Source: Ectothiorhodospiraceae bacterium WFHF3C12
GTDB taxonomy: Bacteria > Pseudomonadota > Gammaproteobacteria > Nitrococcales > Nitrococcaceae
NCBI GenBank assembly: GCA_013519935.1
Contig: JACDUA010000023.1
Span: forward strand, 1 to 56,643
Direction: 5' to 3'
DNA length: 56,643 nt
Under the pieces are notes generated by a model. It had not been told where the DNA came from and did not search any database. It was given only the letters and a program-made list of their open reading frames with translations. Shown in pieces: positions 80 to 34,364 of the stretch (position 1 is the stretch's first letter; each line of letters begins with the position of its first letter). The translations under genes were made by a program, and so were the position numbers.

Positions 80-1821
80 AACGGCGCATCGTCGAACGGG
101 AGATCCCTGAGAGCGCCCTGGCGGCACTCCCGGCCTCATTGCATCCGGTTCTCAGGCGCGTCTATGCGGCCCGCGGCATACGCTCGGACGACGAGCTGGA
201 TTGTGGTGCCAGCCGGTTGGCGCCGCCGGACGCCTTCCAGGGCCTGGAACACGCCACCACGCTACTGGAGCAGGCACTGCGCGCGGGCTGGCGCATCCTC
301 GTGGTGGGCGATTTCGACGCCGACGGCGCCACCAGTACTGCGCTGGCCTTACGCAGTCTGCGCGCCATGGGGGCGGCCCATGTGGATTATCTGGTGCCCA
401 ACCGTTTCGATTTCGGCTACGGACTGAGCCGGGAGCTGGTTGACGTCGCGGTGGAGCGTCAGCCGGATCTGATCATTACCGTGGACAACGGCATTTCCTC
501 CATCGACGGCGTCGCGGCCTGTCAGCAGGCCGGCATTCGGGTGCTCGTTACGGATCACCACCTTCCCGGCGAGCGTCTGCCCGACGCCGACGCCATCGTC
601 AATCCGAACCTGCCGGGTGACGGTTTCCCGAGCAAGAATCTCGCCGGCGTTGGGGTGATCTTTTACGTGATTACGGCGCTGCGTCGCCGCCTGCGCGAGA
701 CCGGGTACTTCCAGGCCGCGGGCGTGCCGGAGCCCAACCTGGCGGAGCTGCTGGATCTTGTGGCCCTCGGCACGGTGGCGGACGTGGTTCAACTGGACGG
801 CAACAACCGTGTCCTGGTGGAGCAGGGCTTGCGGCGCATCCGCGCCGGTCGGGCCTGTCCGGGAATACAGGCCCTGCTGGAAGTGGCTGGCCGGGAGCCG
901 GGCGCGGCCCGGGCGACGGACCTGGGCTTCGCCATCGGGCCGCGGCTCAATGCCGCGGGGCGACTCGAGGACATGTCGCTGGGCATCGAGTGCCTGCTCT
1001 GCGATGCCATGGCGGATGCCCGCGGCATGGCCCAGCGCCTGGATGCCCTGAACCGGCAGCGCCGGGAGATCGAAGGGCAGATGCGCGACGAGGCGGTGGC
1101 GGCGCTGGAACAGGAAGTGGACGCGTTGGCCGGGGAAAGCCTCCCGACGGGACTGTGCGTGTTCGATGACGGTTGGCACCAGGGCGTGGTCGGATTGCTG
1201 GCCTCGCGCCTTCGCGAGCGTTTCCAGCGGCCCGTCATCGCCTTCGCCCCCGACGGCGCCGAGCGGCTCAAGGGCTCTGCGCGGTCCGTGCCCGGCCTGC
1301 ATATTCGCGACGCCCTGGAGGCGGTCAACGTATCCAGGCCTGGCGTCATCGAGAAATTCGGCGGCCATGCCATGGCAGCCGGGCTGACCCTCCATCGGGA
1401 GGCATTCGCGCGCTTCCGGGAGGAATTCGAGTCGGTACTCGAAACGGCCATGGCGGATGTGGCTCCCGCGGACGTGTTGCTCAGCGACGGTGAGCTGCAG
1501 CCCTCCGAGCTGGGTCTAGCGCTTGCGGAAGCCGTGCGCGCCGGCGGTCCGTGGGGACAGGGCTTTCCGGAGCCGCTTTTTCACGGCCGCTTCGAGCTCC
1601 TGGAGAGCCGTGTCGTCGGTGAGCGTCACCTGAAGATGCGGGTGCGCCCCGAAGGCGGCGACGCCGCGGTGGACGCCATCGCGTTCAATCAGGTGGATGC
1701 GGCGGGGGCTTCACCGCGGGGACGACAGGTTCTGGCCTACCGGCTGGACGTCAACGATTACCGTGGCCGGCGCGGCGCTCAGCTCATTGTCGAGTACATG
1801 GAGCCTGACCAGGCGGAATAG
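76..1821 (+). CDS. recJ: Single-stranded-DNA-specific 5'-3' exonuclease RecJ
   Basis: RecJ degrades single-stranded DNA from the 5' end in RecF-pathway recombination, mismatch repair and base-excision repair. The 581-residue length matches the family. DHH-family metal motifs are visible: DFDADG at residues 79-84, VDNG near 136-139 and the name-giving DHH at 160-162. The DHHA1 nucleic-acid-binding domain carries its GGHAMAAG motif near residue 430, and a C-terminal OB-like region follows. The ATG at 76 overlaps the stop of the preceding gene. It converges on the next gene, leaving 8 nt between the two stops. Confidence 0.97.
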   Translation: MKRRIVEREIPESALAALPASLHPVLRRVYAARGIRSDDELDCGASRLAPPDAFQGLEHATTLLEQALRAGWRILVVGDFDADGATSTALALRSLRAMGAAHVDYLVPNRFDFGYGLSRELVDVAVERQPDLIITVDNGISSIDGVAACQQAGIRVLVTDHHLPGERLPDADAIVNPNLPGDGFPSKNLAGVGVIFYVITALRRRLRETGYFQAAGVPEPNLAELLDLVALGTVADVVQLDGNNRVLVEQGLRRIRAGRACPGIQALLEVAGREPGAARATDLGFAIGPRLNAAGRLEDMSLGIECLLCDAMADARGMAQRLDALNRQRREIEGQMRDEAVAALEQEVDALAGESLPTGLCVFDDGWHQGVVGLLASRLRERFQRPVIAFAPDGAERLKGSARSVPGLHIRDALEAVNVSRPGVIEKFGGHAMAAGLTLHREAFARFREEFESVLETAMADVAPADVLLSDGELQPSELGLALAEAVRAGGPWGQGFPEPLFHGRFELLESRVVGERHLKMRVRPEGGDAAVDAIAFNQVDAAGASPRGRQVLAYRLDVNDYRGRRGAQLIVEYMEPDQAE

Positions 1822-28902: not shown

Positions 28903-29664
28903 TTACTGCAGGAGATCGCTCAAAGACACGAATTCCCCGGTCAATTTGTGACGGGGTGCGAGATGAATCAGCGGCCGGGCCTGGTCGTGGGACTCGCGCA
29001 CCTTCACCGACGAAGACAGGTACTGGTCCAGCACCGGCAGCCCTTCGTCAAGCAGGGCCTGGACGATCCGCTGGGGCAGGCTCGCCCGGGCCTGGAACTG
29101 GTTGACGATGATGCCCTCGATCTCCAGCGCGTCGTTGTGGTCCATGCGGATTTCCTGGACGCTATCCAGTAGCTCGTAGAGCGCCCGGCGGGAGAAATCG
29201 TCGCAGTCGAAGGGTATCAGGCAACGGTCGGCGGCGATCAGCGCGGAGCGCGTGAAAAAGCCCAGCGCCGGCGGCGTGTCGATGAAGACGCGCTCGAACC
29301 GGTCCAGCTCCGCCAGGGCCTCGCGCAACTTGTAGATCTTGTAACGGGACTCGAGCTTGCCCTGCAGGTCCTCCAGCTCCCGGTGAGAGGGCATGATGGA
29401 GAGGTTCTCGAAGGGGGTCTCCTGGACGAACTCGTCGGTGTTCTTCTGGTAGAGCCGGAAACTGAGCATCTGGTCGAAGAAGCCGGCCAGGGTGTCCTCC
29501 ACCTGCTCCGGCATATCCCCCAGGAGGTAATGGGTGGAGTTGGCCTGCGGGTCCAGGTCCACCACCAGTGTGGGAATGCCCTGGCTCGCTGATATCGCGG
29601 CCAGGTTGCAGGTGATGGTGGATTTGCCGACCCCGCCCTTTTGATTGAAAATTACGCGCTTCAT
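28903..29664 (-). CDS. ParA/MinD-type ATPase (stand-alone)
   Basis: A 253-residue P-loop ATPase with the deviant Walker A KGGVGKST (residues 9-16, with signature Lys9). Switch motifs are [11 protein letters not shown] and [10 protein letters not shown], and a C-terminal helix bundle completes the protein. ParA-like ATPases position cargos such as plasmids, chemotaxis arrays or pili by patterning on the nucleoid. No parB or centromere-like repeat lies nearby, so the cargo is unknown; the VWA and msh/pom loci next door are candidates. A perfect GC palindrome (28860-28878) lies just past its stop. Confidence 0.85.
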
Positions 29665-29768
29665 TCGCCGCTCGATTCTCCGTGGAAGCCGCCTCGGGCC
29701 AGTCTATGCAAAGGGCCGGGGGCCGTCGAGCACTGCAACACGGACCAACCCGTCCTTTCGGAGGCCGC

Positions 29769-30782
29769 TTGTACGCTCTCCTGCGACCGCTTCTGTTCTG
29801 CCTGGATGCCGAGCTCGCCCATGATCTCTCACTGAATGCCCTGGGGCGGCTGGCGGACCTGCACCTGCTGCACGGAGCGCCCGTTCAGCGCTCGCGCAGG
29901 GTCATGGGCATCGATTTCCCCAACCCGGTAGGTCTCGCCGCCGGGCTGGACAAGAACGGCGATTACATCGCGGCGCTGGGCGCCCTGGGCTTCGGCTTCA
30001 TCGAGGTGGGTACCGTGACGCCGCGGCCGCAACCGGGCAATCCCAAGCCGCGCATGTTCCGACTGACGCCCGCCGAGGCCCTCATCAACCGCATGGGGTT
30101 CAATAACAAAGGCGTGGATCACCTGGTGAAGCAGGTCCGGGGCAGCCGCTACCAGGGCGTGCTGGGTATCAACATCGGCAAGAACAAGGACACGCCCCTG
30201 GAACAGGCCAACGAGGACTATCTGGCCTGTCTGGAGAAAGTCTATCCCCACGCGGATTACGTGGTGGTGAACATTTCTTCACCGAACACGCCGGGGCTGC
30301 GCGAGCTGCAGCGGGGCGAAGCGCTGGATGCCCTGCTTGCGCCGCTCAAGGAATCCCAGGGCCGGCTGGAGAGCAGACACGGCCGCTACGTTCCGTTGGT
30401 GGTGAAGATCGCCCCGGACATGGAAGGGGAGGAAGTGGCCCTGGTGGCCGACCGGCTCATCGCCAACGGGATCGACGGCGTGACCGCCACAAACACCACC
30501 ACCACCCGGGACGGCGTGGAGGGCCTGGCACACGCCGATGAACAGGGGGGACTCAGCGGCGCACCGCTTCGCGCCCGGGCCGACCAGGTCCTTGAACAGC
30601 TCGCCCAGGCATTGAACGGCAGGATGCCGGTCATAGGCGTGGGCGGCATCACCGCCGGTGATCACGCCGCGGAAAAGGAGCGCCTCGGCGCCAGCCTCGT
30701 CCAGCTCTACACCGGTTTCATCTACCGAGGCCCGGCGCTGGTGCCGGAGTGCGTCTCGGCGATGGCCAGAGCAGACGCCTAG
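29769..30782 (+). CDS. pyrD: Dihydroorotate dehydrogenase, class 2
   Basis: Quinone-linked FMN enzyme of pyrimidine synthesis, converting dihydroorotate to orotate at the inner membrane. The start is TTG at 29769, preceded by CGGAGG, giving the family-typical N-terminus MYALLRPLL and 337 residues. Conserved motifs include [37 protein letters not shown] with the catalytic Ser, VKIAPD and IGVGGI. A longer frame from 29682 has an atypical Arg/Gly-rich N-terminus. Its stop overlaps the convergent small gene by 2-4 nt. Confidence 0.95.
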
Positions 30783-30970
30783 GACATCTCCGGCTCGCCG
30801 CACCGGTCACAGTGCGTGAGCTGCACGAAACCGTCATCCGGAATTGCGGCGATCTCCCCATGCACGAGCCCGCCGCACATGCAGTCGTGGGGGAAGCCCT
30901 CGTTGCAGCTCTCGCACTCGGCATCGCCTTTGGCGTGCGATTCCCAATGCGGTTCCTCGACCTGATCCAT
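30779..30970 (-). CDS. Small cysteine/histidine-rich protein (putative zinc ribbon)
   Basis: A 63-residue acidic protein with four cysteine clusters: CESC, DCMCGG and a C-terminal CDRC, with His residues between them. The pattern suggests one or two bound zinc ions. The ATG at 30970 has AGGAG seven bases upstream. The frame continues upstream to 31075, but that part lacks a ribosome binding site and reads as random sequence. It is convergent with pyrD, overlapping its stop. The function is unknown. Confidence 0.7.
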
Positions 30971-31135
30971 AGCCACTCCTTGATGCGGGTCTCGACCACA
31001 CACCAGAAACCATGGGGCTGAAACGGCGCACGTCAAAACGCCCGCGCTTGCCACAATGCAACGTGAGCAAGACAATAGTCGGCCACTGGCTCGGGAGGTC
31101 GGTGAAGCAGGATCGAAGGTACAAGCAGTAGCCCC

Positions 31136-31297
31136 GGAGGAGTGGCTGAGCGGTCGAAAGCGGCGGTCCTGAAAGCCGTTGCTCCGTCAGGCGCCGGGGG
31201 TTCGACTAAGCTGGCGCAGCCAGCTTGGACGTCCGGAGCGCAGCGACGGCGCCCGAAGGGTGAGGGCCGGGAGGCCCGAATCAATCCCTCCTCCTCG
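31136..31297 (+). pseudogene. tRNA-Ser duplicate split in the T-loop
   Basis: The first 70 bases (31136-31205) match the intact tRNA-Ser(TGA) downstream, then about 78 bp of foreign sequence interrupt the T-loop. The tRNA 3' half (CCCTC CTCCTC) resumes at about 31284. Defects: base 33 (always T in elongator tRNAs) is C; the anticodon-stem T-A pair is T-G; the variable-arm stem has one T-C mismatch; the last acceptor base is G, opposing G1; CCA is absent. One variable-arm pair has changed A-T to C-G on both sides. The upstream -10 is TACAAG instead of TACAAT. Almost certainly non-functional. Confidence 0.8.
31206..31283 (+). other. 78-bp hairpin-rich insertion inside the tRNA-Ser duplicate
   Basis: The insertion starts with a perfect 8-bp hairpin, AAGCTGGC-gca-GCCAGCTT (31208-31226). 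A further GCGCAGC core lies at 31238-31244, and a GGGCCGGGAGGCCC hairpin (31264-31276) sits near the end. No open reading frame, target-site duplication or transposase is visible. A second perfect hairpin, GTGGCCGC-gaa-GCGGCCAC (31297-31315), lies just past the tRNA 3' fragment. Both hairpins have GCGNAGC loops, a sequence class known to form exceptionally stable mini-hairpins. Confidence 0.6.
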
Positions 31298-31348
31298 TGG
31301 CCGCGAAGCGGCCACTGGCTGGGGAGGTCGGTGAATCAGGATCGAAGG

Positions 31349-31354
31349 TACAAT
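31349..31354 (+). promoter_or_regulatory. -10 box of the functional tRNA-Ser gene
   Basis: TACAAT ends 10 bp before the mature tRNA 5' end. The -35 region is not consensus. The equivalent hexamer of the broken copy is TACAAG (31120-31125). Confidence 0.45.
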
Positions 31355-31364
31355 CAGTAACCCC

Positions 31365-31452
<88 letters not shown>

Positions 31453-31457
31453 AACGA

Positions 31458-31488
31458 AAAGGGGCCGTCCAATCCGGGCGGCCCCTTT
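31458..31488 (+). terminator. Rho-independent terminator of tRNA-Ser
   Basis: AAAGGGGCCG (31458-31467) pairs with CGGCCCCTTT (31479-31488), a perfect 10-bp stem with an 11-nt loop, followed by a mixed G/T tract. It lies 5 nt after the encoded CCA. Confidence 0.85.
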
Positions 31489-31671
31489 GGGTTTGCGGCA
31501 CTCATCCCGACCATCACCGCCCGCTGCGCGCCCGCCCACTCTGCAACCCGCAACCGCTTGAAATTACCCAACGACTCCCCACCTTAGGGCTTACCGGGAT
31601 GCTGATGACGGCCCGGTTACACAGGAACACACGGCAACGTGTGCCGCAGTTCGCGACGGAGGTAAGGAACC

Positions 31672-31947
31672 ATGAAAGCGAAATGGATCGCAGGAGCGTT
31701 GTTAATCGCCCTGGCATCGGTAGCGATGGCCGGGGAGAAGGGCATGGGCACCGCGGCCATGAAGCAGCTCGACGCCAATGGTGACGGGATGATCAGCCCC
31801 GAGGAGGCCACCGCTCATCCCCGCCTGTCGGAAAACTTCGACGAGTATGACACCGACGGCAGCGGTACCCTCGAACAGGGCGAGTTCGCCCGCTTCGAGA
31901 CCATGTCCCAGGAACGGGAGATGAAGCAGAAGGGCAAGAACGAATAA
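31672..31947 (+). CDS. Periplasmic EF-hand protein
   Basis: A 91-residue protein with a cleavable signal peptide (MKAKWIAGALLIALASVAMA). Two EF-hand calcium loops follow: DANGDGMISPEE (about 34-45) and DTDGSGTLEQGE (about 61-72), each with the usual acidic residues at positions 1, 3, 5 and 12. The protein is short and probably binds Ca2+ in the periplasm, as small calmodulin-like proteins do; the target is unknown. GGAGG lies upstream of the ATG. Strong inverted repeats follow the stop. Confidence 0.88.
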   Translation: MKAKWIAGALLIALASVAMAGEKGMGTAAMKQLDANGDGMISPEEATAHPRLSENFDEYDTDGSGTLEQGEFARFETMSQEREMKQKGKNE

Positions 31948-32357: not shown

Positions 32358-32645
32358 GGCTGGACAATCGCGCGTTCCTGCGAAACCTGGACGGGGTGCG
32401 CCGAGCAGTGTGCCTTCGCCCCCTGGTGGCATCGGTGTGGGCCAGAGGGGGAAGCCCATCGCGGTAGAGACGGCGCGCCCGGAGAACATCGAGCCCCGGT
32501 CGGCACCCGCAGGTTGAGAAACGCAAGCGGATTCGACCCCAAGCATTCCCGCGCGCGCAACCGGGTGTTCATCCGGCGGTGGCTAAGCCGGTATGGTTGG
32601 CGACCGGCATTTCCGCCAGGCGCCGAAAGACCCGAGAATGTCGTG
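32358..32645 (+). other. Gene-free degenerate stretch before the BCCT transporter
   Basis: About 290 bp with no supported gene; the short reading frames lack ribosome binding sites. A 9-bp inverted pair CCACCAGGG (32344-32352) / CCCTGGTGG (32421-32429) spans the edge of the RND relic. With the broken tRNA and the relic it looks like the scar of past insertion or deletion next to a tRNA gene. Confidence 0.4.
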
Positions 32646-34364
32646 ATGACCCGCACAGGTACCTTCATTCGGACACTGCTGGGCGATGTCGGGGTGGTGT
32701 TCCATGTCTCCGCGGTCGTGGTCGTGCTGTTCGTCTCCCTGGCCGCGGTCTATCCCGAAACGCTGGAACAGGCGGCCCAGCAGGCCCTGGACGCCACCGC
32801 CACCAATTACGGGTGGATGTACCTCTTCGCCACCAGCGGCTTCGTGCTGTTCGTGGTGTTTCTGGCGTTTTCCAAGTTCGGCAACGTTCGGCTCGGTGCC
32901 GAGGGCGAACCGCCGGAATTCTCCTTCGAGAGCTGGCTGGCGATGATCTTTTCCGGCGGCATGGGCGTGGGCCTGGTGTTCTGGGGCGTGGCCGAGCCGA
33001 TGATGCATTTCAACGAGCCGCCCCTGGGCCTCGGCGAGCCGCGCACCGCCCACGCGGCCCAGCTCGGCATGCGCTACGCGTTTTTCCACTGGGGGCTGCA
33101 CCAGTGGGCGAATTTCACCCTGGTGGGGCTCGCTATCGCTTACGTGCGCTTTCGCCACAACAGCTACGGGTTGATCAGCGAGACCTTCCGGCCGCTACTG
33201 GGCGCGCGGGTCGACGGACTGGCGGGGAAGGGCATCGACATCCTTGCCGTGGTGTCCACCATGTTCGGCGTGGCCACGACCCTGGGCCTGGGTGCGCTAC
33301 AGGTCAACAGCGGGCTGGCGCGCCTGGAGCTCTTGCCCTACGACGTCAACTCGCAGTTCCTGATCATGGGCGTGGTGGCGGCGCTGTTCACCCTCTCCGC
33401 CATGACCCCGCTGGACCGCGGCATCCGCTATCTGAGCAACGCCAACCTGGCGCTCGCCGCCGGTCTGATGCTGTATGTGCTGCTCATGGGGCCCACCGCC
33501 TTCATCTTCAGTCAGCTGACCCAGACGGTGGGGGAGTACCTGGGCAATATCGTGGAGATGAGCCTGGTCACCACCCCGTATTCCAGCGAGCACTGGGTGG
33601 AGCAGTGGACCATGTTCTACTGGGCGTGGGGGCTGAGCTGGGCACCGTTCGTGGGCAGTTTCATCGCCCGCATCTCGCGGGGGCGAACCATTCGGGAGTT
33701 CGTGCTGGGCGTGATGTTCGTCCCCGTGGGGCTGAGCATGCTGTGGTTCGCCACCTTCGGCGGCACGGCCATCCATTTCGAGCTCTTCGGTCAGGCGGAT
33801 ATTGCCGACGCCGTGGCCAGAGAGGTGCCCGCCGGCCTTTACGCCCTGCTGGAGCAGTTCCCGGGGGCGTGGATCGCTTCGGTGGCCGCCATCGCCCTGG
33901 TTTCCATGTTCGTCATCACCTCCGCCGACTCCGCTACCTTCGTGCTGGGCATGTTCACGTCCAAGGGCGTACTGAACCCGACGCGGTTCGTGCGCATCCT
34001 GTGGGGGGTGCTGCAGCTGTTCATGGCTGGCGTGCTGCTGCTCAGTGGCGGCCTTTACGGGCTGCGTACCGTATCGATCATCGCCGCTTTTCCGTTCATG
34101 CTGCTCATGGTGGTGATGGCGTACTCGCTGTACCGGGACCTCGCGCAGGAATCCCGCCGCATGGCCGAGAAGGAGCTGCTGCTGCGCGAGCGCATCGAGC
34201 GCATGCTGCTGCGGGAGTCCGAGAAGGAGGCCGAGCGGCTGGCCGAGGAGGAAATCCATCCGACCACGCCTGAGACCCCGCAGTCGCCGGCCGCCGAGGG
34301 TTCTGCCGCCGAGTCAGGGGCAGGCGGTGATTCCGCACCATCGCCGCCGAGTGGCCGCACGTGA
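32646..34364 (+). CDS. BCCT-family betaine/choline/carnitine transporter
   Basis: A 572-residue secondary transporter for quaternary ammonium solutes such as glycine betaine. It has 12 hydrophobic segments. GMGVGLVFWGVAEPMMHF (about 103-120) and HWGLHQWANF are the BCCT signature regions. The family pattern TMFYWAWGLSWAPFVGSFIA appears near residue 325. The highly charged C-terminal tail (about 500-572; LRERIERMLLRESEKEAERL) is of the kind that senses osmotic state in BetP. The ATG at 32646 begins MTRTGTFIRT; in-frame sequence further upstream is unsupported. Substrate cannot be fixed. Confidence 0.92.
   Translation: MTRTGTFIRTLLGDVGVVFHVSAVVVVLFVSLAAVYPETLEQAAQQALDATATNYGWMYLFATSGFVLFVVFLAFSKFGNVRLGAEGEPPEFSFESWLAMIFSGGMGVGLVFWGVAEPMMHFNEPPLGLGEPRTAHAAQLGMRYAFFHWGLHQWANFTLVGLAIAYVRFRHNSYGLISETFRPLLGARVDGLAGKGIDILAVVSTMFGVATTLGLGALQVNSGLARLELLPYDVNSQFLIMGVVAALFTLSAMTPLDRGIRYLSNANLALAAGLMLYVLLMGPTAFIFSQLTQTVGEYLGNIVEMSLVTTPYSSEHWVEQWTMFYWAWGLSWAPFVGSFIARISRGRTIREFVLGVMFVPVGLSMLWFATFGGTAIHFELFGQADIADAVAREVPAGLYALLEQFPGAWIASVAAIALVSMFVITSADSATFVLGMFTSKGVLNPTRFVRILWGVLQLFMAGVLLLSGGLYGLRTVSIIAAFPFMLLMVVMAYSLYRDLAQESRRMAEKELLLRERIERMLLRESEKEAERLAEEEIHPTTPETPQSPAAEGSAAESGAGGDSAPSPPSGRT

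Follow-up and report, generated by a model that had tools for sequence, protein, structure and literature searches.

An RtT-related hairpin core in the T-loop of an extra tRNA-Ser(TGA) copy, with relatives in T-, D- and anticodon loops of tRNA copies elsewhere

How does a bacterial tRNA gene come to be interrupted in its T-loop, and by what kind of sequence? The question is raised by a second copy of tRNA-Ser(TGA) at positions 31136-31297 of the window, which is the whole stretch of 56,643 nucleotides from Ectothiorhodospiraceae bacterium WFHF3C12 that was analyzed. The T-loop of this copy (TTCGA-AT) is interrupted after TTCGA by 78 bp (31206-31283). An earlier note, made from the letters of the DNA alone, had described the split with coordinates that proved correct and had offered two explanations, namely a new small palindromic mobile repeat or an excision scar. 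It had also stated that the T-loop is no known intron position in bacterial tRNA, in agreement with an extract of a 2014 review, which gives position 37/38 in the anticodon loop as the known site of group I and II introns in bacterial tRNA genes (PMC4033280).

The split copy and its surroundings

The locus consists of two tandem units that begin at 31080 and 31309 and take in about 56 bp upstream of the tRNA (Table 1). The units share a 126-bp direct repeat (31080-31205 and 31309-31434; 90% identical, spacing 229), and unit 2 carries the intact tRNA-Ser(TGA), the only tRNA called at the locus by ARAGORN. Once the insert is deleted in silico, ARAGORN calls tRNA-Ser(TGA) in the window copy too. 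The 3' part of this copy restarts as ATCCCTCCTCCTC, continues with G for C and lacks CCA; its acceptor end reads CTCCTCG with the final acceptor pair broken, U33 is changed to C and the variable arm contains a mismatch. The promoter scan gave a single promoter-like site, at 31048-31076 in front of the split copy (0.1 expected), and a scan of 31000-31530 for terminators found none. None of the five neighboring genes between 28903 and 34364 points to a mobile element according to Pfam. Two perfect 8-bp hairpins had been noted earlier: the one with the GCA loop is hairpin 1 of the insert, and the one with the GAA loop exists as well, at the junction of the tandem units and outside the insert.

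Table 1. Features of the split tRNA-Ser(TGA) locus and neighboring genes (window coordinates)
Feature	Position	Strand	Evidence or remark
Repeated upstream part, unit 1	31080..31135	+	TACAAG vs TACAAT in unit 2; 46/50 bases equal upstream of both copies
5' part of split tRNA-Ser(TGA), up to TTCGA	31136..31205	+	62/70 bases identical to intact gene; Rfam tRNA 25.5 bits, weak, under gathering 29
RtT-like insert, 78 bp, four hairpins	31206..31283	+	R2 94.5 bits, E 1.8e-21 (one of nine training sequences); RNA fold z -3.18
Hairpin 1, AAGCTGGC-GCA-GCCAGCTT, 8 pairs	31208..31226	+	Two-sided changes in 5/8 pairs (8 distinct copies); 100% of cells pair
Hairpin 2, tandem GA/GA mismatch, GCA loop	31231..31250	+	Two-sided changes in 3/9 pairs; 82.4% of cells pair
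Hairpin 3, CCC-GAA-GGG	31252..31260	+	Invariant, so neutral for covariation
Hairpin 4, GGGCC-GGGA-GGCCC	31264..31277	+	Two-sided changes in 2/5 pairs; 100% of cells pair
3' part of split tRNA (T-stem and acceptor strand, no CCA)	31284..31296	+	14-nt direct repeat 31283-31296 = 31434-31447
Perfect hairpin, GAA loop, 8 pairs, at junction of tandem units	31297..31315	+	Sequence
Intact tRNA-Ser(TGA)	31365..31452	+	ARAGORN; Rfam tRNA 60 bits
Inverted repeat 3' of intact tRNA, terminator-like	31451..31495	+	Inverted repeat; terminator scan of 31000-31530 silent
ParA/MinD-type ATPase	28903-29664	-	Pfam
Dihydroorotate dehydrogenase	29682-30782	+	Pfam
ORF without match	30779-31075	-	Pfam
Small EF-hand protein	31672-31947	+	Pfam
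BCCT transporter	32514-34364	+	Pfam

A structured core and its kinship with RtT RNA

The insert is not unique. A blastn search of 31070-31460 against the whole genome found it at the tRNA-Ser(GGA), tRNA-Ser(CGA), tRNA-Arg(CCG) and tRNA-Ser(GCT) loci, and copies were also detected with a covariance model, R2, which was built from nine copies of this genome and comprises 88 positions and 27 pairs. (A model R1, made from 28 sequences with an automatic structure of 10 pairs, was too weak and was replaced.) At E<0.003 R2 matches 15 places on seven contigs, nine of them by construction and each with a tRNA within 300 nt; seven additional rows follow at E 0.24-0.69. Two kinds of copy can be distinguished. 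Four of the 15, the window copy included, split a near-full-length tRNA copy, and all four are recognized as tRNA by ARAGORN when the insert is removed. The second kind lies downstream of an intact tRNA, separated from it by a terminator-like hairpin, and carries a repeat of the tRNA 3' end, in several cases with CCA; R2 finds no copy of this kind on the window's contig at E<=1. Downstream-type copies L009, L010, L011 and L012 (contigs C86, C157, C13 and C90) are preceded, after the terminator-like hairpin, by an inverted tRNA T-arm (GATTCGAACC...).

The core is made up of four consecutive hairpins. On eight distinct copies 94.3% of the structure cells pair, compared with 29-42% when the structure is slid along the sequences, and 10 of the 27 pairs are changed on both sides. 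The observed covariation was reached by none of 500 shuffles in four of five measures and by seven in the fifth (further pair types), although these shuffles overstate the case, since the copies are related and come from one genome. This covariation is the strongest evidence for a structured core. In hairpin 2, the GA/GA pairs are exchanged for standard pairs in two of the eight copies. Folded alone as RNA, the 78-nt core of the window reaches the z-score given in Table 1 with hairpin 2 displaced by an alternative, and in two further split-copy cores, with z -2.99 and -2.89, hairpin 2 does form. None of these three core-only folds contains hairpin 3, which does occur when the whole split copy is folded (z -2.27 as RNA). 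The special stability that had been ascribed to the GCGNAGC sequences is not decisive: as DNA, many shuffles of the 107-nt T-arm region fold at least equally well (z -1.45; -0.98 as RNA), compared with z -3.18 for the 78-nt core as RNA.

The relatives outside this genome gave the RNA a name. A pattern scan gave 43 stretches from named genome contigs, among which, by a rough estimate, some tens of chance matches are expected; clear relatives were seen in gammaproteobacteria, for example in Spiribacter and Bowmanella. Matches from Bacteroidetes and other distant groups showed no hairpins by eye and were set aside, a viral scan yielded a single stretch unmatched by R2 at E<=1, and the plasmid and phage rows among the matches listed were, by their query range, confined to the tRNA parts of the query. 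HEARO/omega RNA was considered as a candidate (standalone relatives start with ATGA or GTGA); the Rfam scan gave RtT RNA (RF00391; gathering score 45 bits) instead. RtT was called on three of eight relative stretches (L031, 64.8 bits; L038, 55.1 bits; L049, 47.7 bits), and two more are above gathering in a scan of nine stretches (L249, 65.1 bits; L252, 58.7 bits).

In this genome RF00391 matches only five downstream copies, end to end and below gathering (22.2-38.4 bits, E 1.3e-5 to 0.14). Such weaker matches carry little weight because control genomes match at E<=10 too (4 of 14, E. coli included, with one above the cut-off). The window copy has no RF00391 match at E<=10, and among 16 split copies on 14 stretches in the Rfam scan only the T-loop insert of L193, in a split tRNA-Ser, attains the gathering score, with 48.7 bits. 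R2, in turn, finds four RtT copies at the tyrT locus of E. coli K-12 with E 2.8e-11 to 1.8e-10, the next row having E 0.45. These four score 132.9-137.5 bits with RF00391, and one lies within the annotated rttR. Each of them reads AAGGTTCG(A/G)...GA(A/G)TA-ATCCTTCCCCCACCACCA, that is, the T-arm and 3' end of tRNA-Tyr opened at the same point; three start with the tRNA-Tyr T-arm strand AAGGTTCGA and the fourth with AAGGTTCGG. The insert is thus very probably a relative of RtT. Since R2 finds the E. coli RtT copies, yet the window copy is unmatched by RF00391, it is, judged by its sequence, a divergent relative rather than a threshold member of the family.

The insert and RtT/RttR of the E. coli tyrT locus have in common a related hairpin core and a place beside tRNA genes, and the window copy shares with RtT both the association with a tRNA gene and the repeated tRNA sequence. 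Of the tRNA, the E. coli copies and those of the downstream type elsewhere have only the T-arm strand and 3' end, and they follow a tRNA gene. The window copy, by contrast, has the whole tRNA 5' part before the core, sits upstream of the intact gene and ends in CTCCTCG instead of a tRNA 3' end with CCA. In E. coli, RtT is part of the tRNA precursor. A tandem GA motif is reported in RtT (extract of PMC7657543); hairpin 2 of the window copy holds a tandem GA/GA, which may correspond to it. Relatives of RtT adjoin tRNA genes in Actinobacillus, where they are positive on Northern blots, and one is widely conserved in Pasteurellaceae (extract of PMC4986893); related literature includes PMC11623569 and PMC9501238 (both as extracts).

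Distribution of relatives and of split tRNA copies

R2 matches, own genome included in each count, 20 of 23 genomes of the family (E<=1e-4), 32 of 54 of the order (E<=1e-5), 106 of 369 sampled genomes of the class and 56 of 398 sampled genomes of the phylum (both E<=1e-6), the majority of the sampled class genomes being without a match at that threshold. Copies were classified from all listed rows with flanks in the family and order searches, except one overlapping row (G035) and two weak rows of G007, from the best-scoring 28 loci and 60 regions of the 106 matching class genomes, and from 9 loci and 40 regions of the phylum search. Second-locus rows of one place were left out, as was a weak antisense match on L004; of the 236 cmsearch rows entered, one further duplicate was dropped, leaving 235 distinct copies, some of which are weak (24-27 bits) and may be chance. 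The phylum set of 68 copies was counted without two rows repeating L250 and includes two copies from class genomes (L253, L256).

Most copies follow a tRNA gene. Among the 235, 170 follow a same-strand tRNA at no more than 500 nt, with a median distance of 81.5 nt, and 114 of these repeat the 3' end of the nearby tRNA. The others are near contig ends (23), without a tRNA within 500 nt (15), with a downstream tRNA only (12) or strictly split (15). In the phylum set 45 copies follow a tRNA and 10 a tmRNA; 6 are near contig ends, 6 have neither neighbor and 1 is split. The ten tmRNA-linked copies come from five loci in genomes of a single family that does not belong to the class; ARAGORN places the tmRNA genes 66-79 nt ahead of them (L263 631-716, L261 408-498, L282 758-835, L295 620-704, L296 632-716; Rfam confirms the tmRNA in L263), so that the association reaches another RNA with a T-arm. 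Cores without a tRNA or tmRNA on the stretch were seen in L278 (602-685), L279 (636-720), L280 (585-665) and L290 (677-761) and may be dispersed copies outside tRNA genes; those of L278 and L279, the latter near a contig end, are apparently enclosed by other stems (CCCCA/TGGGG).

Split copies number 21 in 14 genomes, with the core after (T/C)GA in the T-loop (16), the D-loop (3) or the anticodon loop (2). Fifteen strict and five looser cases belong to the 235 class copies and one to the 68 phylum copies; as best-scoring loci were chosen and rows were dropped, these frequencies are not population estimates. The looser cases, all from the 12 copies with a downstream tRNA only, are the window copy, C157, L225, L153 and the L015 insert in the anticodon loop; in them the tRNA part is decayed or multiply cut. 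The split copy of the phylum set (L265) is a tRNA-Ser(CGA) with 74/74 bases, and a second copy in that genome (L272), at a contig end and with no intact tRNA on the stretch, was not counted. Four split copies are from this genome, three are identical tandem units in G174, L015 and G315 have two each, and G239, G004, G139, G167, G413, G301, G362, G392, G088 and G441 have one each.

Entry is not restricted to the T-arm, as the D-loop and anticodon-loop cases show. Inserts in the anticodon loop (loci L175 and L015) follow ACTCGA in G239 and L015, and those in the D-loop (loci L142, L193 and L153) follow GGTCGA in G004 or GGCTGA in G315 and G088. Double inserts also occur: one tRNA copy of G315 has inserts in its D- and T-loops, the latter being the L193 insert that Rfam calls RtT, and one tRNA-Ser copy of L015 in its anticodon and T-loops. 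This L015 copy additionally has a D-loop insert of about 150 bp with inverted repeats (~655-810, minus strand), which is unmatched by R2.

On the right side of the insert the tRNA restarts at the insertion point with at least eight exact bases in 12 of the 16 copies split in the T-loop and in both of those split in the anticodon loop. The restart is brief or indistinct in L167, L223, L225 and the T-loop copy of L193, and likewise in the L142 and L193 copies with D-loop inserts. All 21 split copies are followed, 28-502 nt downstream, by an intact gene for the same isoacceptor, and no same-strand tRNA lies upstream of them within the stretches (at most 1,300 nt). The tRNA 3' tail is kept in none of the 15 strict split copies, nor in L265, compared with 114 of the 170 downstream copies. 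An ARAGORN join match at a contig end (L085), which does not end in AATCC, was judged false. The literature searched, largely without subscription papers, yielded no description of RtT inside tRNA genes. The split arrangement is real, recurrent and, as far as this literature goes, undescribed, and the kind of RNA involved is already known.

Origin of the split arrangement

A repeated, covarying core related to E. coli RtT/rttR is found in this T-loop and, elsewhere, in T-, D- and anticodon loops after (T/C)GA; its mobility is plausible. We read the RtT module as one that repeatedly enters loops of dispensable tRNA copies, with local recombination as the main rival, and regard it as fairly probable that the RtT-related four-hairpin core of the window came into the loop of a dispensable upstream tRNA copy by insertion. 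Such a history would start with a tandem duplication of the tRNA gene, after which a core copied from another RtT locus would enter the upstream copy in one of its loops. The tRNA would still be supplied by the downstream gene and no longer by the split copy (here CCA is missing and U33 is C), and the split copy may be kept alike by gene conversion, be amplified in tandem or decay. Its predicted transcript is a tRNA-shaped RNA with one loop replaced by four hairpins, probably as part of the tRNA precursor, like RtT in E. coli. In the description as a new small palindromic mobile repeat, the palindromic repeat with copies is borne out by the 15 model matches, the novelty is half right given the kinship with RtT, and mobility is plausible; nothing supports the excision scar.

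A wider proposition goes beyond the window and is put forward tentatively, as a possibility: RtT would be a mobile, structured and site-specific element of proteobacteria, going into tRNA hairpin loops (D, anticodon and T alike) directly after (T/C)GA, and E. coli RtT would be its worn-down descendant, an element-split T-arm of which the remaining tRNA has been lost.

Local recombination would need no mobility. A tRNA and its downstream RtT would be duplicated in tandem, and a deletion between two GGTTCGA sequences, one in the T-arm and one at the start of RtT, would fuse the tRNA 5' part to RtT. We consider this rather unlikely, although it accounts for the constant upstream position (21/21) and the T-loop bias and fits the T-arm strand of tRNA-Tyr with which the E. 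coli RtT copies begin. Closest relatives elsewhere are often in the same genome. The split element of L198 is 96% identical to the copy downstream of the same tRNA, and the closeness of L198 (0.96) and L212 (0.88) to downstream copies of their own genomes fits local recombination equally well; the T-loop element of L193 has its closest relative on another contig (94%). Also in keeping with recombination, in one genus (three genomes) with conserved neighbor proteins at the tRNA-Arg(CCG) locus, the element precedes the tRNA in one genome and follows it in the other two: G413 contains a split copy and lacks a match downstream, G317 contains what by eye resembles a decayed split-copy remnant and a downstream match (E 4.8e-7), and G207 a downstream match only (E 2.1e-6), its split copy being absent by eye. 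Because the three differ, split copies seem to come or go within a genus; this is the nearest approach to a before/after pair, no exact one having been found for any single locus.

Against recombination, the D-loop (GGTCGA, GGCTGA) and anticodon-loop (ACTCGA) sites share only their last 2-4 bases with GGTTCGA, which speaks for insertion, or for recombination over just 2-4 shared bases. Furthermore, the four split elements of this genome, which are 82-94% alike across four tRNA genes, each have as their closest copy in the genome another split one at a different tRNA gene (0.85-0.94), compared with at best 0.78-0.82 for the genome's own downstream copies. The split group is not sharply apart, since downstream copies of other family genomes reach 0.83-0.84. 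Lastly, the window's contig is without a downstream copy at E<=1.

It is also conceivable, if doubtful, that the split copy is a functional composite RNA, tRNA-shaped and without CCA, that is under selection as a decoy, a regulator or a processing aid for the downstream tRNA. At 10 of 14 loci compared, the tRNA part and the intact gene show 100% identity, despite 50 upstream nucleotides that differ strongly in some (13/50 alike in L212, 14/50 in L223; 12/50 in L063, but there with a 16-nt match shifted by one base). Identity of this kind implies gene conversion or selection, so that conversion could produce it as well. The loss of the 3' tail in all strict split copies, as opposed to its retention in most downstream ones, the promoter-like site upstream of the window copy, the variable arm of the C157 split copy, which has a new sequence and still forms five consecutive pairs, and the Northern signals of RtT relatives beside Actinobacillus tRNA genes (extract of PMC4986893) would suit such a function. 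The decayed remnant in G317 and the absence in G207, in contrast, suggest dispensability there, and the window copy has a mismatched variable arm and has lost U33.

A removable intron, by which the core would be spliced out to yield a working tRNA, is very unlikely: ARAGORN accepts all four split copies here after removal in silico, but in the window copy the restored tRNA is without CCA, carries C33 and has its final acceptor pair broken, every split copy is accompanied by an intact gene, and Rfam finds no group I or II match at the locus at E<=10. The draft state of the genome (168 contigs) would allow for an assembly artefact; this and chance likeness can practically be dismissed, as the two units differ by 10% over 126 bp and the same arrangement is seen at four loci of this genome and in 13 others.

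Among known elements, Rickettsia palindromic elements are small palindromic repeats that can lie inside genes, and by description the insert resembles them in both respects. REP/BIME and other palindromic repeats are likewise small, repeated and hairpin-rich, and BIME-related attenuator candidates are said to resemble rtT (extract of PMC2965389); the description sets the RtT-like copies apart in that most of those classified are tied to tRNA genes and have a fixed order of hairpins. Group I and II introns of tRNA genes share the principle of a structured element interrupting a tRNA-gene loop. They differ from the insert, which lies in the T-loop, the D-loop or, after ACTCGA, the anticodon loop, measures just about 78 nt, is without an intron match in the window and does not restore a working tRNA.

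In 14 genomes a relative of a named but poorly understood RNA is found within extra tRNA copies, in their T-, D- and anticodon loops, sites at which interruptions of bacterial tRNA genes were unexpected. The arrangement offers a testable origin for RtT RNA and suggests a reason for its tRNA 3' ends, and it warns tRNA annotation of a class of split pseudo-tRNAs.

Upstream of the split tRNA-Ser(CGA) on contig C157, an apparent remnant of a further split-copy unit was observed (L010, 1180-1250, minus strand), which looks like tandem growth followed by decay.
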